From contig QHBK01000002.1 of assembly GCA_003244105.1 (NCBI GenBank), positions 180,112-215,462 of the forward strand: a DNA stretch of 35,351 nt, written 5' to 3'. The notes beneath the pieces are model-generated. The model searched no databases. It had not been told where the DNA came from and saw only the letters and a program-made list of their open reading frames with translations. Positions 26,458-34,242 of this stretch are shown here, piece by piece (the stretch's first letter is position 1; each line of letters starts with the position of its first letter). Origin of the DNA: Candidatus Eremiobacter antarcticus (GTDB lineage: Bacteria > Vulcanimicrobiota > Vulcanimicrobiia > Eremiobacterales > Eremiobacteraceae). Both the position numbers and the translations under genes were made by a program.

Positions 26458-28083
26458 ATGCCGAATAAATGTCTTCGCGTACGATTCTTTGCCTGCCTGA
26501 TCTTCTCGCTGTTCCTGGGAGGCGTTCTAGGCGCACCTGCAAACGCGCACCCTCTCGGCAATTTCACGATCAACCACTTAGCCAAAATTCAGGCGAGCGC
26601 ACAGAGATTACGCGTGCATTACGTGCTTGATCTGGCCGAGATTCCCACGTTTCAAATCATGCACCAGCGCGCTCCGGCCGGGAACTGGACTCCGAAGGTC
26701 ATGCAGGCGTGGGCTGATTCCGAAGTTAGTCTTGTACAGACGGGGCTGCAAATCGCAAGCGATGGAGAGGCACTGCAATTGCACTCTCTGGGTGCAAAGG
26801 CGCGAACGCGGCCGGGAGCCGGCGGCCTTGCGCTCCTCTATTGGGTTGGAGATTTTACCGCGGACTTAGGCCAGCCGGCTAAGCGCGCGATCAGCATCAG
26901 TGACCATGTTTACGAAGACCGCCGCATCGGCTGGAAGGATATCGTCATCCTCCCCCAGAGCGAGCCCACCCACGAACTACTCATGTATCCAAGTGCGCTT
27001 CTGGGATCACCACGCACGATCACGAGGGCTTCTTTCAAAATCAGTTCCCTCGGCAAGATCTCCGCCATCCAAAGCGACTCCGCCACCGTCCAGCAACAAC
27101 AGAGTACGAGCTCGATTGTGAGTCAGACGTTGCTCTCACAGATGTTTTTGCGGACGGACCAAGGACCGCTTTGGATCCTGATCACGATCCTTGCCGCCTT
27201 TGGGTTTGGCGCATTGCACGCTATAGAACCGGGACACGGCAAAGCGTTGCTTGCCTTTACCCTGGTCGGAGCCCGCGCAACTACAAGGCAGGCTACTATT
27301 TTGGCCGCCTCGCTGACTTTCGCCCATACGATCGGTGTTATTCTGCTTGGCGTTGTCCTATTTTTCGTGACGGGCTTTGTCCCGGAAACAATTTATCCAT
27401 GGATCACGCTTGCGTCCGGCGTAGCCATTGCGATCATCGGCGGACGCGCTTTGGCGCGCTATATCCGCGGTGTGCGACCTTTTTCGCACGCGCATGTCCA
27501 CGAGCACGAACATGCCCATCCACACGAGCATCCCCACATGCACGCTCACGGTGTCGCGCGCTCCCACGCGCACGGGCACGATCATAACCATCCGGTCGCC
27601 GACAATCAGGCATTGACCCACACCCACAGCGGCACGGCGCACTCACATCTCGTCCCCGGCCATCAACCCCTAAACTTTGGCAGCGCCATTTGGGCGGCGT
27701 TGAGCGGCGGCATCGCGCCCTGCCCAGCCGCTATCATCCTGTTGATCGCCGCCGTGAACTCGCATCGCATCGGCTACGGGTTGCTCTTGATCGTTATCTT
27801 TGGACTGGGCTTAGCCTCCGTGCTGACCGGACTTGGATTGGCGGTTGTGCATGGCGCTGCATGGATTTCGAGTAATGCAAAATACGAGCGGATTGTGCGT
27901 TTCGGACCGGTAGCGTCGGGTCTGCTTATCTCAATTATTGGTTCGGTGCTGCTCGGACAGGGATTCGTCCAAATCGGCGTCCACACCAGCGCGTTACTCG
28001 TCAGCGCGCTCGCGCTTGCCGCAATAGCGGGTTATGCGTTTAGCGCAAATCACACCCATCGCACGGTTGCGCAAGCAGCATGA
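26458..28083 (+). CDS. NicO/RcnA-family nickel/cobalt transporter with exported N-terminal domain and His-rich loop
   Basis: A 541-aa protein. A signal peptide (FFACLIFSLFLGGVLGAPANA) is followed by about 200 residues of an extracytoplasmic domain starting HPLGNFTINHLAKIQASAQR. Two transporter halves follow. The first has GFGALHAIEPGHGKALLAFT (residues about 251-270), the second ALSGGIAPCPAAIILLIAAV (about 413-432). Between them, residues about 342-402 form a very His-rich cytosolic or periplasmic loop (HVHEHEHAHPHEHPHMHAHG). NicO/RcnA proteins move Ni2+ and Co2+, and the E. coli member exports them. The N-terminal domain and loop suggest metal capture. Direction of transport here is not known. 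The TGA overlaps the next gene start by four bases. Confidence 0.88.
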   Translation: MPNKCLRVRFFACLIFSLFLGGVLGAPANAHPLGNFTINHLAKIQASAQRLRVHYVLDLAEIPTFQIMHQRAPAGNWTPKVMQAWADSEVSLVQTGLQIASDGEALQLHSLGAKARTRPGAGGLALLYWVGDFTADLGQPAKRAISISDHVYEDRRIGWKDIVILPQSEPTHELLMYPSALLGSPRTITRASFKISSLGKISAIQSDSATVQQQQSTSSIVSQTLLSQMFLRTDQGPLWILITILAAFGFGALHAIEPGHGKALLAFTLVGARATTRQATILAASLTFAHTIGVILLGVVLFFVTGFVPETIYPWITLASGVAIAIIGGRALARYIRGVRPFSHAHVHEHEHAHPHEHPHMHAHGVARSHAHGHDHNHPVADNQALTHTHSGTAHSHLVPGHQPLNFGSAIWAALSGGIAPCPAAIILLIAAVNSHRIGYGLLLIVIFGLGLASVLTGLGLAVVHGAAWISSNAKYERIVRFGPVASGLLISIIGSVLLGQGFVQIGVHTSALLVSALALAAIAGYAFSANHTHRTVAQAA

Positions 28084-28883
28084 TTTTTGCGAGCGCGTTT
28101 ACAGTCTATGCACTGGGATTGCGCCATGGGGCCGACCCAGACCACCTAGCGGTCATCGATAATCTTACCCGCAACTCAATTGCAAGGAAGCCGATTCTGA
28201 GCCGGTTTGTTGGTACGCTCTTTGCGGGCGGCCATACGATCATGGTTTTGGCAGTTGCCGCGCTCGTCGGCTACCTGGGGTCCCGGTTCGCTAGCCATGC
28301 GGTATTGGTCGAGAAGATTGGCACGTGGATTAGCATCGTTGTCCTGCTGGTCATTGCGGGCTTGAACATACGGCAACTCTGCCTTGGTCAAACCGATCGA
28401 CTTTCCGGTGCGAAGACGCGTTTGCTTCCAAAATTCTTGCGTAACGGTCAGAGCCCGTGGCTAGCTGTGCCAGTCGGTCTGCTCTTCGGCTTCGGTTTTG
28501 AGACGTCCAGTCAAGTGGCCGCCTATGCGGTTGCCTTTGGGGCGGACGCGGGAGTGATCGGAGCGCTCATCGTTGGTTCGATGTTCTGCGCCGGCATGAT
28601 CACGACCGACACACTGGACTCGATTCTCCTTCACCGGCTGGTTTCGTACCGCGGCGGGCGTCTACCACGCGTCATGCGCGCCTGGCTTTGGTCCGTCACC
28701 ATCTTCGCCGTCGCGGTTGCGGCCTACGAACTCTTACAGTTTTTCGGATTCACATCACCCGTCCCGGATATTTCGGTAAGCGCAATCCTGGTCGCCAGTC
28801 TGCTTGCTGTATTCGTCTGGGTTTTCTACACAACTCGAACAATTGGTGTCGAGTTACCCACCCCAATGGAGCAACTACCATGA
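28080..28883 (+). CDS. HoxN/NixA-type (NiCoT) nickel permease
   Basis: A 267-aa membrane protein of the NiCoT family. The signature HX4DH is in LRHGADPDHLAVIDNLTRNS (His16, Asp21, His22), which is essential for Ni/Co uptake in characterised members. Other matches are GTLFAGGHTIMVLAVAALVG in helix III and GLLFGFGFETSSQVAAYAVA followed by GMITTDTLDSILLHR. About seven or eight hydrophobic helices are present. It begins at ATG 28080 inside the preceding stop region (ATGA) and ends with an ATGA overlap onto the DUF4331 gene. So two nickel transporters of different families and a DUF4331 protein are translationally linked. Nickel supply to a [NiFe]-hydrogenase or urease is a likely purpose, but neither enzyme is in the window. 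Confidence 0.92.
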   Translation: MIFASAFTVYALGLRHGADPDHLAVIDNLTRNSIARKPILSRFVGTLFAGGHTIMVLAVAALVGYLGSRFASHAVLVEKIGTWISIVVLLVIAGLNIRQLCLGQTDRLSGAKTRLLPKFLRNGQSPWLAVPVGLLFGFGFETSSQVAAYAVAFGADAGVIGALIVGSMFCAGMITTDTLDSILLHRLVSYRGGRLPRVMRAWLWSVTIFAVAVAAYELLQFFGFTSPVPDISVSAILVASLLAVFVWVFYTTRTIGVELPTPMEQLP

Positions 28884-29743
28884 ACAACCTCTTGCGCACG
28901 CTCGCGGGATTCTTGGCCGTTTCTGTGCTCGCTGTCGCGTTCTCGTTTTATTCGAGCCGCGCCGCGCGCAGTTCCGACCATCAAGACTCACCGACCGTCG
29001 TGAACAACCCCATGGAAGATATTACCGACATGTATGTCTTCCCCGATTCGCAGACGCCCGGTAACGTCGTCTTCGCGGTGAACTTCTGCCCGCTCATCGG
29101 CGCAGGATGCCCATCGAATCCAACCTTTGACCCCAACGTTCTCTACCAAATCAAGATCGCAACGGGGTACGGAAGCGCCACGCCGGACTACAAAGAGCAC
29201 ATTGTCATCCAAATGAAGGCTAACACCGCGGGGACGAATCCAACCTTCACAATCTACGGACCGGGTGCGCCCAATGAAGTCGCTACGAGTAACACGCTAG
29301 TGGCGACCGCAGGGCAGACCCCCTACAACCAGACCACCACGCTTGGCAACGGCATCAAAGTCTTTGTCGGGCCGCGGCACGATCCGTTCTTCATCGACTT
29401 GGGAGCGCTTTTCAAGATCCTTCCCGACCGCAACTACAAGGATCCGCAAAAAGATACCAGCCCGATGACGAATCCGAAATTCACGTCGTTCAACTTCCCT
29501 AGCGGAGCCGCGCCCGTAAAGGACGTGACCGGGACGCCGTATACGGCCAACAACATGCCGGGCGGGCCACCGGCAACAGCCAGCTCACTCGGTTGCAACA
29601 TTCAAATGCCCACCAACACCGTTGCACCGTTTGACGTGGAGTCGTTCGTCATTTCGGTTCCCAAGACGATGCTCGTTCCAGCCGGACAAGCCCTCGGGCC
29701 CGTGGGCATTTGGGCTACCACATCCACGCCGACCGGATCTTAG
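28880..29743 (+). CDS. DUF4331 protein, N-terminal half, exported
   Basis: A 287-aa exported protein with a signal peptide (LAGFLAVSVLAVAFSFYSSR). It matches the first half of DUF4331: SSDHQDSPTVVNNPMEDITD followed by MYVFPDSQTPGNVVFAVNFC, then VGPRHDPFFIDLGALFKILP and FDVESFVISVPKTMLVPAGQ. It stops right after LGPVGIWATTSTPTGS. In usual DUF4331 proteins (about 450-500 aa) this point continues into the QVDRMGRPA region. The function of DUF4331 is not established. It starts at ATG 28880, overlapping the permease stop, with GGAG at 28867-28870. The gene that follows encodes the missing half. Confidence 0.88.
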   Translation: MNNLLRTLAGFLAVSVLAVAFSFYSSRAARSSDHQDSPTVVNNPMEDITDMYVFPDSQTPGNVVFAVNFCPLIGAGCPSNPTFDPNVLYQIKIATGYGSATPDYKEHIVIQMKANTAGTNPTFTIYGPGAPNEVATSNTLVATAGQTPYNQTTTLGNGIKVFVGPRHDPFFIDLGALFKILPDRNYKDPQKDTSPMTNPKFTSFNFPSGAAPVKDVTGTPYTANNMPGGPPATASSLGCNIQMPTNTVAPFDVESFVISVPKTMLVPAGQALGPVGIWATTSTPTGS

Positions 29744-29756
29744 GAGAACATTCAAT

Positions 29757-30329
29757 ATGAAACATTATCTCGCTGGAGTGGCTCTCGCAATCGCCGTTTT
29801 CGGTTTTGCGGCTTGCGGCAATAACAATGCCGGCACTCTCTTTCCCGGCGTGAAACCCGGAGTCTATCAACAGGTGGAGTTATGGGGGCGCCCCGCCGTC
29901 AAGGAAGGTCTCGAAGTGTTCAACGCCCACGATGCCACCAACCGCTCGGAACCGTACAGCGACCCAACGCTATCGGCGAACGTTTCGAACTTCATGACGA
30001 CTGTCGCTGGCCGGGATGCGACGACGTCCGCAACCGTCACGAAAATTCTCAGCACGAATGAAATGGTCGTCAACCTGTCGCAAAGTGCGGTGACCGCCGC
30101 ATACTTGGGGGTTGAAACGGGCGGAGCACTTGGCCGCAGCAAATTCGGCGGCCGCGCGCTCAACGACGATGCCGTTAGTCTTGACCTGGGCGTAGTCTTT
30201 GGAAACACCCTCGCGAAGGTCGGGGCAGTCTCCGATGATTTCAAAGAGCACCCCTGCTTGACCACCGACAACGTGGGTCCACAGAATCCCAATAACGGAC
30301 CGTTCCCCTTCCTCGATCCGCCGGTCTAA
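29757..30329 (+). CDS. DUF4331 C-terminal half as a separate lipoprotein
   Basis: A 190-aa predicted lipoprotein: MKHYLAGVALAIAVFGFAAC with a lipobox ending at Cys20. The mature part corresponds to the second half of DUF4331: QQVELWGRPAVKEGLEVFNA at the start, GRSKFGGRALNDDAVSLDLG, then a C-terminal NNGPFPFLDPPV. It starts 14 bases after the first half, with AGGAGA at 29742-29747 overlapping that gene's stop. Together the two proteins rebuild one DUF4331 domain. They may assemble outside the membrane, with the C-terminal half lipid-anchored. The TPR gene begins 10 bases downstream. Confidence 0.82.
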   Translation: MKHYLAGVALAIAVFGFAACGNNNAGTLFPGVKPGVYQQVELWGRPAVKEGLEVFNAHDATNRSEPYSDPTLSANVSNFMTTVAGRDATTSATVTKILSTNEMVVNLSQSAVTAAYLGVETGGALGRSKFGGRALNDDAVSLDLGVVFGNTLAKVGAVSDDFKEHPCLTTDNVGPQNPNNGPFPFLDPPV

Positions 30330-30339
30330 ACCCGGAACA

Positions 30340-31662
30340 ATGCGGCTACGGACGTCCCTGATCCTAATGGCGAGCGCGGTTGTCGCGCTCGCCATTTGGC
30401 CGCTTCTTACCGTTCTTGGTGGGCCGGCCCCGGCAGCAATGATGACGCCGGCGCCCGTGCTCGCCGACTATCTGGGCCGCGACAAAACGATTGCACTCGA
30501 AGAGAGAATTGTGAGGCGCGACAAGAACGATCAAATTTTTCGACGCTCACTCGCAGCGCAGTACTTGCAGCGCTTCCGAGAACAAGGCGACATCGGAGAC
30601 GTTGCGCGCGCGCAGGAGATGGCTGAACAATCCATTGCTCTGCAGCCACAACTCAATACCGCCGCACGCATGGCCTTGGCTTCGGCGTACTTGAACTATC
30701 ATAACTTTCACGCAGCACTGGCTTCCGAGAAACTTGCATACGCAGCCGAACATAACCCGGCCGCGCTGACGCAGGAAGCGTCGATTCTTATGGAGCTTGG
30801 TAAGTACGCCGCTGCGGAAAATATCTTAAAGCACCCACCGACGGCTCGCGCACAAAATCCGGCCTGGAACGCGGTTCAGGTCCGCTACGAGGAACTTACC
30901 GGACATCTAGCAGATGCCCGCGCTCTGCTGGCGCAGATCATTCCCTCCATCGACGCTAATTTGTACGAGCCCGCATATGACCGCTCGTGGTTCCACATGC
31001 GCGCAGCGCAACTCGCTTTCGAGGCCGGGGACGATGCCGCCGCCCAACGAGAATTTAGCGAATCATTGAAAATTTTTCCAACAAATTATATGGCGCTGTT
31101 ATGGCAAGCGCGTATGTATCGCGCACACAAGCAGTGGCAATTGGCCCTCGATGCCGCGAAGCGAAGCGCCAATCTCTATCCAATTCCCCAGGTGCTCGGA
31201 TATGAAGCGGATTCCGAGCGCGCGCTCGGCGATCTCCGCGCAGCGAGCGAAACCGATGCGCTCATCTTGGCTGAGCAAAAGCTTTTCAACGTTCAGGGTG
31301 TCAACGACCGTCTGCTGGCCAATTACTTCGCGCAGCGTCACGTGCATCTCGACGATGCCCTTCGAGCCGCGCAAGACGACTATCGTAAGCGCGGCGACGA
31401 AATCTATGCCGACGACACGATGGCCTGGGTCCTGGCTACCACAGGGGACTGGCGACAGGCGCGCATCTACGCTATTCGCGCAACGCGCTGGAACACGCAG
31501 GATTCAGAGGTTCAATATCATGCCGGCGTTATTGCCCTGCACATGGGCAAGATCGAAGAGGGAAAGCGTAGGCTCGGGTCTGCCCTTGCTGCCAACCCTG
31601 AATTCGACGCTTTTGATGCTGACGATGCGCGTTCGAAGCTTGCGACACTTAGCAAAGTTTGA
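30340..31662 (+). CDS. Exported or membrane-anchored TPR protein
   Basis: A 440-aa protein with an N-terminal hydrophobic segment (SLILMASAVVALAIWPLLTV) followed by about eight degenerate tetratricopeptide-like helix pairs. Examples are RAQEMAEQSIALQPQLNTAA, AQREFSESLKIFPTNYMALL, QLALDAAKRSANLYPIPQVL and GVIALHMGKIEEGKRRLGSA. TPR domains act as scaffolds for protein partners. Its place 10 bases after the DUF4331 halves in the same operon suggests it helps assemble or hold that pair or the transporters. There is no enzyme motif. Its TGA shares one base with the ATG of a short truncated ORF. Confidence 0.85.
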   Translation: MRLRTSLILMASAVVALAIWPLLTVLGGPAPAAMMTPAPVLADYLGRDKTIALEERIVRRDKNDQIFRRSLAAQYLQRFREQGDIGDVARAQEMAEQSIALQPQLNTAARMALASAYLNYHNFHAALASEKLAYAAEHNPAALTQEASILMELGKYAAAENILKHPPTARAQNPAWNAVQVRYEELTGHLADARALLAQIIPSIDANLYEPAYDRSWFHMRAAQLAFEAGDDAAAQREFSESLKIFPTNYMALLWQARMYRAHKQWQLALDAAKRSANLYPIPQVLGYEADSERALGDLRAASETDALILAEQKLFNVQGVNDRLLANYFAQRHVHLDDALRAAQDDYRKRGDEIYADDTMAWVLATTGDWRQARIYAIRATRWNTQDSEVQYHAGVIALHMGKIEEGKRRLGSALAANPEFDAFDADDARSKLATLSKV

Positions 31663-32763: not shown

Positions 32764-34242
32764 TTATTTTAGCGTTTCGACAAATGCCGCGACGTCTCGA
32801 ACGTCTTTCTCCGTCAATACACTTGGATAGAGGGCAGGCATCGGGGGCGCCGGTTTCTTGATCCACAAGATAACTGCCGCTTCATCTTTGCGTATATGCT
32901 CGCTTCTGAGCGGCGGCCCGGTCCCACCTTGTCCAGAGGCCCCGTGACATGATGAACAGTTTTGAGCGTAGATCTGCTTCCCATGCGCGAGATCGGCTAG
33001 GGCTGGGTGCGGCACCTGCGCTTCCGCAACGACGGGGGCTGATAGCGCGGCGGTTGGATTCGGCGCGGATGTTTGCGTTACCGCGGGGGTGCTTGCAACG
33101 GCCGGTGCGGCTCCGGCTACTTTCTGCAAAGGAAGCGTCCACCACAGCATGTAGCGCCAAGCTGGTTGAGAATTTTGCGCCATCGCCGATTCCAGAAAGA
33201 GATGAAGGTACGGAGCGACGTGGTAGGTGAGATCAATATTTCCACTTTGGCTTTGGGTGCCTAAGCCGTCATTCTGAAACTCCTTACGGAATGCGGCAAG
33301 AGCCTTGTCCCCGAGCGGTTTGTAAAGCTCTATCGTGGCGTCCGTGCTATGGGCACTCCCAAGTGGAGCTCCAATCGCATCTTGTCCGGCATTCGCGTCG
33401 TATGCCATCTGGTACATGGCAAAAATTCCAGGCATATGGCCAACGGGATCTCTTTGCAAATACGGCGTGATTGATGAATACTGATCGAAGCTGCCCTCGG
33501 GAAGCGGGAACGACCCGCGAGAACCCATGAGGCCGTATTCCAGCGGCTGAGTTGGATTTGCATGCGCAACCCGCCACTGCACGGTTTTTTCTATATTTTG
33601 TCCCCACGCGCTCGCCCCCGAAAGATCGCTGCTGTCGCCGAAATATCCGATCTCGGCATCCAAGGAATTCTTGACGTAGTTGAACTTCGCACCCCAACGA
33701 TTGCCGTCGAGCTGGTAAGCATGTTCTCCGACGGTAATCTCCGGGGTCGCGAACGAAGCCAAATCAAACCATTGGCTCAAGGGCGAGGCGGTAGTACCAG
33801 GCATCTTTCCAACGAATAAGTGCCCGTCACGATTGAGCAGGTTGTTGAACGTGATCCACGCGGTATCGATTCCGCCAGGTTGCCCGGCTTGAACGATCCA
33901 TTGTTGAAAATGGAAGGTAACATTCTTATCAAACGCGCCTGCAGCATGTATCGCAAGATTCCCGAATTCCGTCCTATGTGGCTCATTGGGATCTTGCGAG
34001 TCGTAGTTTGCGCTTTCGCCGATCCAAAAAGGCGTTGAACGGTGAAGCACGTGGGGATCAAGGGATGCGTAACCCGTGCGCTGGAGATAGCGGCCATAAG
34101 CGTTTAATGCGGGCACCTGCGTATGGCAGACCTCGCACCTCATTCCATAGGATTGCGCAAAGGGCGGCATCGCCATCGCCGTACCAATAGATGCTAATAA
34201 AAAACCGCCGACTGTAAAAAGCGCACGGAAAAAGCGGTTCAT
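32764..34242 (-). CDS. c-type cytochrome protein with CXXCH near both ends and a porin-like middle
   Basis: A 492-aa exported protein: signal peptide FFRALFTVGGFLLASIGTAMA, then a heme site CEVCH (residues 36-40). About 330 residues follow that look like beta-barrel strands (FGNLAIHAAGAFDKNVTFHF, WGAKFNYVKNSLDAEIGYFG, IDLTYHVAPYLHLFLESAMA). An Ala/Pro/Thr linker (about 375-415) then leads to a C-terminal cytochrome c domain with CSSCH (429-433) and a likely distal Met468 in PPMPALYPSV. The outer part resembles outer-membrane channel proteins, and the last 75 residues resemble class I cytochromes. A role in moving electrons across the outer membrane is an inference. It sits upstream of, but apart from, the cupredoxin gene. 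Confidence 0.8.
   Translation of the reverse strand: MNRFFRALFTVGGFLLASIGTAMAMPPFAQSYGMRCEVCHTQVPALNAYGRYLQRTGYASLDPHVLHRSTPFWIGESANYDSQDPNEPHRTEFGNLAIHAAGAFDKNVTFHFQQWIVQAGQPGGIDTAWITFNNLLNRDGHLFVGKMPGTTASPLSQWFDLASFATPEITVGEHAYQLDGNRWGAKFNYVKNSLDAEIGYFGDSSDLSGASAWGQNIEKTVQWRVAHANPTQPLEYGLMGSRGSFPLPEGSFDQYSSITPYLQRDPVGHMPGIFAMYQMAYDANAGQDAIGAPLGSAHSTDATIELYKPLGDKALAAFRKEFQNDGLGTQSQSGNIDLTYHVAPYLHLFLESAMAQNSQPAWRYMLWWTLPLQKVAGAAPAVASTPAVTQTSAPNPTAALSAPVVAEAQVPHPALADLAHGKQIYAQNCSSCHGASGQGGTGPPLRSEHIRKDEAAVILWIKKPAPPMPALYPSVLTEKDVRDVAAFVETLK

Follow-up and report, generated by a model that had tools for sequence, protein, structure and literature searches.

How bacteria scavenge nickel outside the cytoplasm is poorly known. 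Among the closest described systems are the anglerases, exported domains on HupE/UreJ-2 permeases that were found by a histidine at the N-terminus of the mature protein (PMC12537917) and have so far been described only on HupE/UreJ (PMC12537917, PDB 9GCE). Purified Ang-1 binds copper with a dissociation constant (Kd) of 74 nM and nickel with a Kd of 220 nM (PMC12537917). Copper and nickel are also bound by the amino-terminal copper- and nickel-binding (ATCUN) site, NH2-X-X-His (PMC7701195). Here we describe a five-gene operon at positions 26458-31662 of a 35,351-nt window, the whole stretch of DNA analysed, from Candidatus Eremiobacter antarcticus; all coordinates are positions in this window, whose end is also the end of its contig (215,462 bases). 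The operon encodes a NicO-family permease, a NiCoT-like permease, a DUF4331 protein split into two halves and a tetratricopeptide repeat (TPR) protein. They are one form of a so far unnamed module, which spans at least eight bacterial phyla and places exported proteins with predicted N-terminal histidines next to nickel/cobalt permeases of different families. On balance we favour the view that the module works in the envelope, where it would capture nickel, or a divalent metal similar to it, and move it inwards.

The operon and its relatives across phyla

The five genes are arranged as follows.

26458-28083, plus strand: NicO-family permease gene, with signal peptide, anglerase-like exported domain of about 200 residues, histidine-rich loop and PF03824 transmembrane domain
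28080-28883, plus strand: NiCoT-like permease gene, sharing a 4-base ATGA overlap with the NicO gene
28880-29743, plus strand: DUF4331 N-half gene, exported and predicted soluble, with a 4-base overlap with the NiCoT-like gene
29757-30329, plus strand: DUF4331 C-half gene, a separate lipoprotein, 13 bases after the N-half
30340-31662, plus strand: TPR protein gene, with an N-terminal hydrophobic anchor or signal, 10 bases after the C-half

This layout had been proposed in a first-pass annotation made from the sequence alone, together with an HX4DH motif in the second permease, ALHAIEPGHGK and GGIAPCPAA in NicO and a histidine-rich loop; the gene coordinates confirm the set with its overlaps and gaps, and the motifs are all present, HX4DH as HGADPDH and the histidine-rich loop in NicO. 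According to Pfam both permeases lie above the PF03824 cut-off of 27.7 bits (NicO 39.4, NiCoT-like 68.0), and TPR families match the fifth gene, which accompanies most copies of the module. Both halves are members of DUF4331 (PF14224) by profile, at 96.7 and 40.5 bits against a cut-off of 27, the N-half matching the profile from its first position and the C-half matching positions 248-421, but here they form two exported proteins, the second of them a lipoprotein. The name NiCoT permease holds only in part: the second gene shares HX4DH and the further signature motifs GFETSSQ and GMITTDTLDS with HoxN, NixA and NhlF, but at 267 residues its product is short and divergent and falls far under the subfamily cut-off (NCBIfam TIGR00802, 83 bits versus 333).

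Within the window's phylum 68 of 149 genomes carry PF14224, spread over 34 of 70 genera. When 75 neighbourhoods were annotated with profiles built in this analysis, most of the NicO-linked loci among them had the order NicO-NiCoT-DUF_N-DUF_C-TPR or one of two variants, NicO-DUF_N-DUF_C-TPR-NiCoT and NicO-DUF_N-DUF_C-TPR. The gene set recurs in dozens of genera, which led us to reject a genus-specific oddity, and because the identical order is repeated in many of them the arrangement is not due to chance. Of the 43 phylum loci whose flanks extend 4 kb or more in each direction, 26 have a nickel/cobalt permease within 4 kb. In the metagenome-assembled genome (MAG) of the window, five of the six NicO-superfamily proteins are found in DUF4331 loci (three of four without a suspect contig end), whereas about 2% of random 10-kb stretches would be expected to contain such a protein. 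The first-pass annotation had claimed a functional module and named co-occurrence as its check. This claim is strongly supported: the order is conserved across genera and phyla, the five genes are not confined to one genome, and DUF4331 and TPR genes lie mostly beside nickel/cobalt transporters rather than unrelated genes.

In a genome scan and phylum samples, DUF4331 with TPR, fused or split, was found beside differing permeases of the NicO, NiCoT, HupE/UreJ and CbiM-Q-O families. NicO is the partner in Cyanobacteriota (all 11 complete loci), Chloroflexota and Actinomycetota; HupE_UreJ_2 in Armatimonadota, Gemmatimonadota (12 of 17 complete loci) and some Bacteroidota; HupE/UreJ in Pseudomonadota; CbiM-CbiQ-ABC ATPase again in Armatimonadota; and NiCoT in the window's phylum. 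Annotated plasmids carry DUF4331-TPR-'nickel transporter' in Streptomyces and DUF4331-(TPR)-HupE/UreJ in Lichenicola and Comamonadaceae, with the same set lacking TPR in Rhizobium. The link between DUF4331 and permeases is strong but not universal, as there are also solitary DUF4331 genes (in Methylocystis, one Streptomyces and one Rhodobacteraceae). A TonB-dependent receptor joins the cluster in many Bacteroidota and some Gemmatimonadota loci; since such receptors are common in those phyla, this association counts for less than the one with permeases.

Two loci have additional genes. One Streptomyces plasmid (L196:5704-12934) reads DUF4331-TPR-nickel transporter-DUF4331 with a sortase gene after it, and in one Bacteroidota module a short, histidine-rich, exported-looking open reading frame lies between the TPR and TonB receptor genes (L191:10555-10908).

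Predicted N-terminal histidines in NicO and DUF4331

The residues on which the comparison with known metal sites turns are the following.

26548-26550, plus strand: His31 of NicO, the predicted mature N-terminal residue (ANA↓HPLGNFTINH)
27487-27648, plus strand: histidine-rich loop of NicO, residues 344-397, modelled at low confidence (predicted local distance difference test, pLDDT, about 40)
28973-28981, plus strand: S32-D33-H34 of the DUF4331 N-half, predicted mature N-terminus ARS↓SDH, an ATCUN-type XXH
29805-29816, plus strand: lipobox FAAC (Cys20) of the DUF4331 C-half

NicO had been read as an RcnA-type exporter, a reading that we could not uphold. It shares with RcnA the PF03824 transmembrane domain and the histidine-rich loop, but it stays below the subfamily cut-off (NCBIfam PRK10019, 114.8 bits versus 195), has another gene context and is not a plain RcnA, as it carries an extra exported domain of about 200 residues that is predicted to begin, once mature, with histidine. 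All module NicO proteins whose N-terminus is intact have a small residue and then a histidine at the predicted end of the signal peptide, mostly as AxA↓HPLGNFTINH; A30-H31 is invariant in our alignments, and only about 2% of background exported-like proteins from the same loci have histidine at mature position 1. The AlphaFold model of the window's NicO has a mean pLDDT of 76.7, with residues 41-200 of the N-domain mostly above 85. Its best match among 350,542 chains of the PDB (Foldseek) is 9GCE, Ang-1 (probability 1.00, E 2.2e-3, TM score 0.52 by target, root-mean-square deviation 8.3); the next matches have probabilities of at most 0.41.

As in Ang-1 and Ang-2, an exported domain that is predicted to start with histidine, and that may share their beta-sandwich fold, is fused to a nickel permease (PMC12537917, PDB 9GCE), and the model places helices between strands 2 and 3, matching the published description of Ang-1. 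The differences are that the fusion partner is NicO instead of HupE/UreJ-2, that sequence similarity is undetectable and that DUF4331 and TPR partners are added; NicO and TPR are both absent from the text of PMC12537917. The likeness thus appears to be structural and architectural, and homology is not proven. A NicO-type N-domain (VNA↓HPLDN) without a permease, apparently with a single membrane anchor at its end, was also seen in Armatimonadota, directly after TPR (L173:2529-3527).

The DUF4331 N-half carries a predicted ATCUN-type copper/nickel site at mature position 3, as its conserved S-D-H sits just past the signal peptide. When the histidine is set as mature residue 3, 97% of 151 DUF4331 sequences fit the -3/-1 rule, compared with 2-45% for other registers, and a histidine at this position is found in about 2% of background exported-like proteins from the same loci. 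DUF4331 proteins that are not exported start with M-S-[NH]-H, which gives X-X-His once the methionine is removed. Short proteins of this kind, without signal peptide and starting M-S-N-H or M-S-H-H, occur at L073, L077, L078, L091, L101, L199, L200, L203 and L204; those at L199, L204 and L101 adjoin HupE or NiCoT-like genes. S-D-H is replaced (SFxxQDSP, STDLQDT) in the N-halves of L063, L064, L067, L068, L083 and L113 and in the second copies of L107 and L108, which except for L064 form one paralogue clade.

A lipobox is common to the separate C-halves (98 of 102) and rare in N-halves (5 of 104, mostly internal chance matches) and fused proteins (6 of 73). On a tree of 148 N-domains, made by a quick search and with many open forks, phyla form nearly single groups and the split or fused state has switched six times or more. 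Since separate C-halves carry their own lipoprotein signal and the state has switched so often, we reject a mere frameshift as the origin of the split. A full-length DUF4331 relative was modelled at pLDDT 92 and a predicted template modelling score (pTM) of 0.88; it has no PDB match at E <= 1e-3, and a profile search of solved structures gave none either. The NikMNQO/CbiMNQO and DUF4198 extracytoplasmic nickel systems likewise pair a metal-specific permease with an extracytoplasmic helper, but DUF4331 differs in having no sequence or fold match among solved structures.

Capture, metal and direction of transport

The first-pass annotation's proposal that exported parts capture the metal gains support from the predicted N-terminal histidines and from the fold match to Ang-1. 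In that annotation DUF4331 and the TPR protein would also form a physical complex, and the histidine-rich loop would act as a buffer. Possibly the mature N-terminal histidine of the NicO domain takes up the metal and passes it to the attached permease, with the NiCoT-like permease serving as a second entry through the inner membrane. The DUF4331 halves, one free with its S-D-H site and one lipid-anchored, might re-form a single domain outside the cytoplasmic membrane, where it would collect or buffer the metal, and the TPR protein might link DUF4331 either with the permease or with an outer-membrane receptor. Nickel is our best guess for the metal. We infer import rather than export, given that importer families and TonB receptors make up the interchangeable partners. 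The expected association with [NiFe]-hydrogenase or urease is positive but modest: in the window's class DUF4331 is present in 24 of 29 genomes with either enzyme and 36 of 88 without (Fisher 9e-5), and by genus in 15 of 18 versus 15 of 30 (p = 0.03), statistics that ignore relatedness and genome size.

Several points weigh against nickel capture and import as set out here. Cleavage sites were predicted by the simple -3/-1 rule and not by SignalP; the pTM of the NicO model is only moderate (0.50); and its Foldseek E-value against 9GCE is 2e-3. Comparison of the NicO and HupE N-domains with hhalign gave no convincing profile similarity (3% probability), so that the anglerase link rests on the fold and the N-terminal histidine. 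About 40% of the phylum's DUF4331 loci with complete flanks have no adjoining permease, and one DUF4331 paralogue clade (e.g. L063, L067, L068, L083) has lost the histidine; most of its members have no adjoining permease. Several module-bearing genomes are without matches to NiFe-hydrogenase or urease. As a clue to the metal, no riboswitch or other Rfam signal was found in the window and 15 module loci apart from an unrelated Flavo-1 RNA. Copper, too, is bound by Ang-1 and by ATCUN sites.

A module of the same architecture whose N-terminal-histidine and ATCUN sites serve copper capture or detoxification nevertheless seems unlikely to us: Ang-1 and Ang-2 hold copper more tightly than nickel (PMC12537917), ATCUN sites bind Cu(II) (PMC7701195) and NicO has a weak DsbD_2-type match, but the adjoining permeases (NiCoT, HupE/UreJ, CbiM/Q) are nickel/cobalt families and the module is associated with hydrogenase and urease. 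Cobalt uptake for cobalamin would suit the CbiM-Q-O neighbours in Armatimonadota, the TonB receptors of the Bacteroidota loci and the several hosts without hydrogenase or urease. We regard it as quite improbable, however, as the window and 15 module loci contain no cobalamin riboswitch and fused CbiM-PDGLE, counted here against cobalt, is typical of nickel energy-coupling factor (ECF) systems. Moreover, the anglerase tested was not stabilised by cobalt (PMC12537917). It is just as doubtful that the module serves metal efflux and tolerance, in which case NicO would export metal in the manner of RcnA and DUF4331/TPR would be a periplasmic sponge, for although NicO and RcnA belong to one transmembrane family and NicO has a histidine-rich loop, NicO misses the RcnA cut-off and bears an exported, capture-like domain, and its replacements are the importer families HupE, NiCoT and CbiM, with TonB receptors as further partners.

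Within the preferred reading of nickel capture and import, we tentatively suggest that DUF4331 and TPR might be an unrecognised, transporter-independent device for extracytoplasmic nickel delivery, with an ATCUN site, that serves at least four permease families and an outer-membrane receptor and has a NicO-borne anglerase as its partner here. A comparative survey of nickel (PMC2667541) mentions neither TPR nor TonB. DUF4331, PF14224 and HPLGNF are not mentioned in the literature searched, which is weak evidence of novelty as most subscription journals lie outside it. The module would give DUF4331, a family without a solved relative, a concrete and testable function and carry the anglerase concept over to a second family of permeases. 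Its hosts include culturable cyanobacteria and Streptomyces, and among uncultured soil bacteria it could serve to mark a demand for metal.

Provenance of the window

From about 9.0 kb to its end, the window matches contig C39 of a second MAG (G092) at all but 2 positions in 26 kb; this contig is also QHBJ01000032.1, from an Antarctic bin of a different family from the window's MAG. Between 8.1 and 9.0 kb there are about 160 mismatches, and the sequences upstream of 8.1 kb, though syntenic, are no more than about 65-76% identical; along the window G+C drops from 0.63-0.64 to 0.59. The window's DUF4331 groups on the tree with sequences from genomes of G092's family. The pattern is explained either by chimerism of the contig or by a transfer in the very recent past. 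The operon itself is real, but its host is probably a G092-type organism, in which no hydrogenase or urease was found.

Because the last 26-27 kb of the window are nearly identical to another MAG, both the 'second copy' of the operon and the hydrogenase context of the window's MAG are unsafe. We therefore withdrew the two copies in one genome after the chimera test. Locus L115, 99.99% identical to the window, was rejected as an independent copy. The window's MAG (G000) has a [NiFe]-hydrogenase large subunit in a 598-residue open frame (C12:15465-17021). Downstream of the operon, at 32764-34242 on the minus strand, the window encodes a 492-residue protein with a C-terminal cbb3-type cytochrome c domain.

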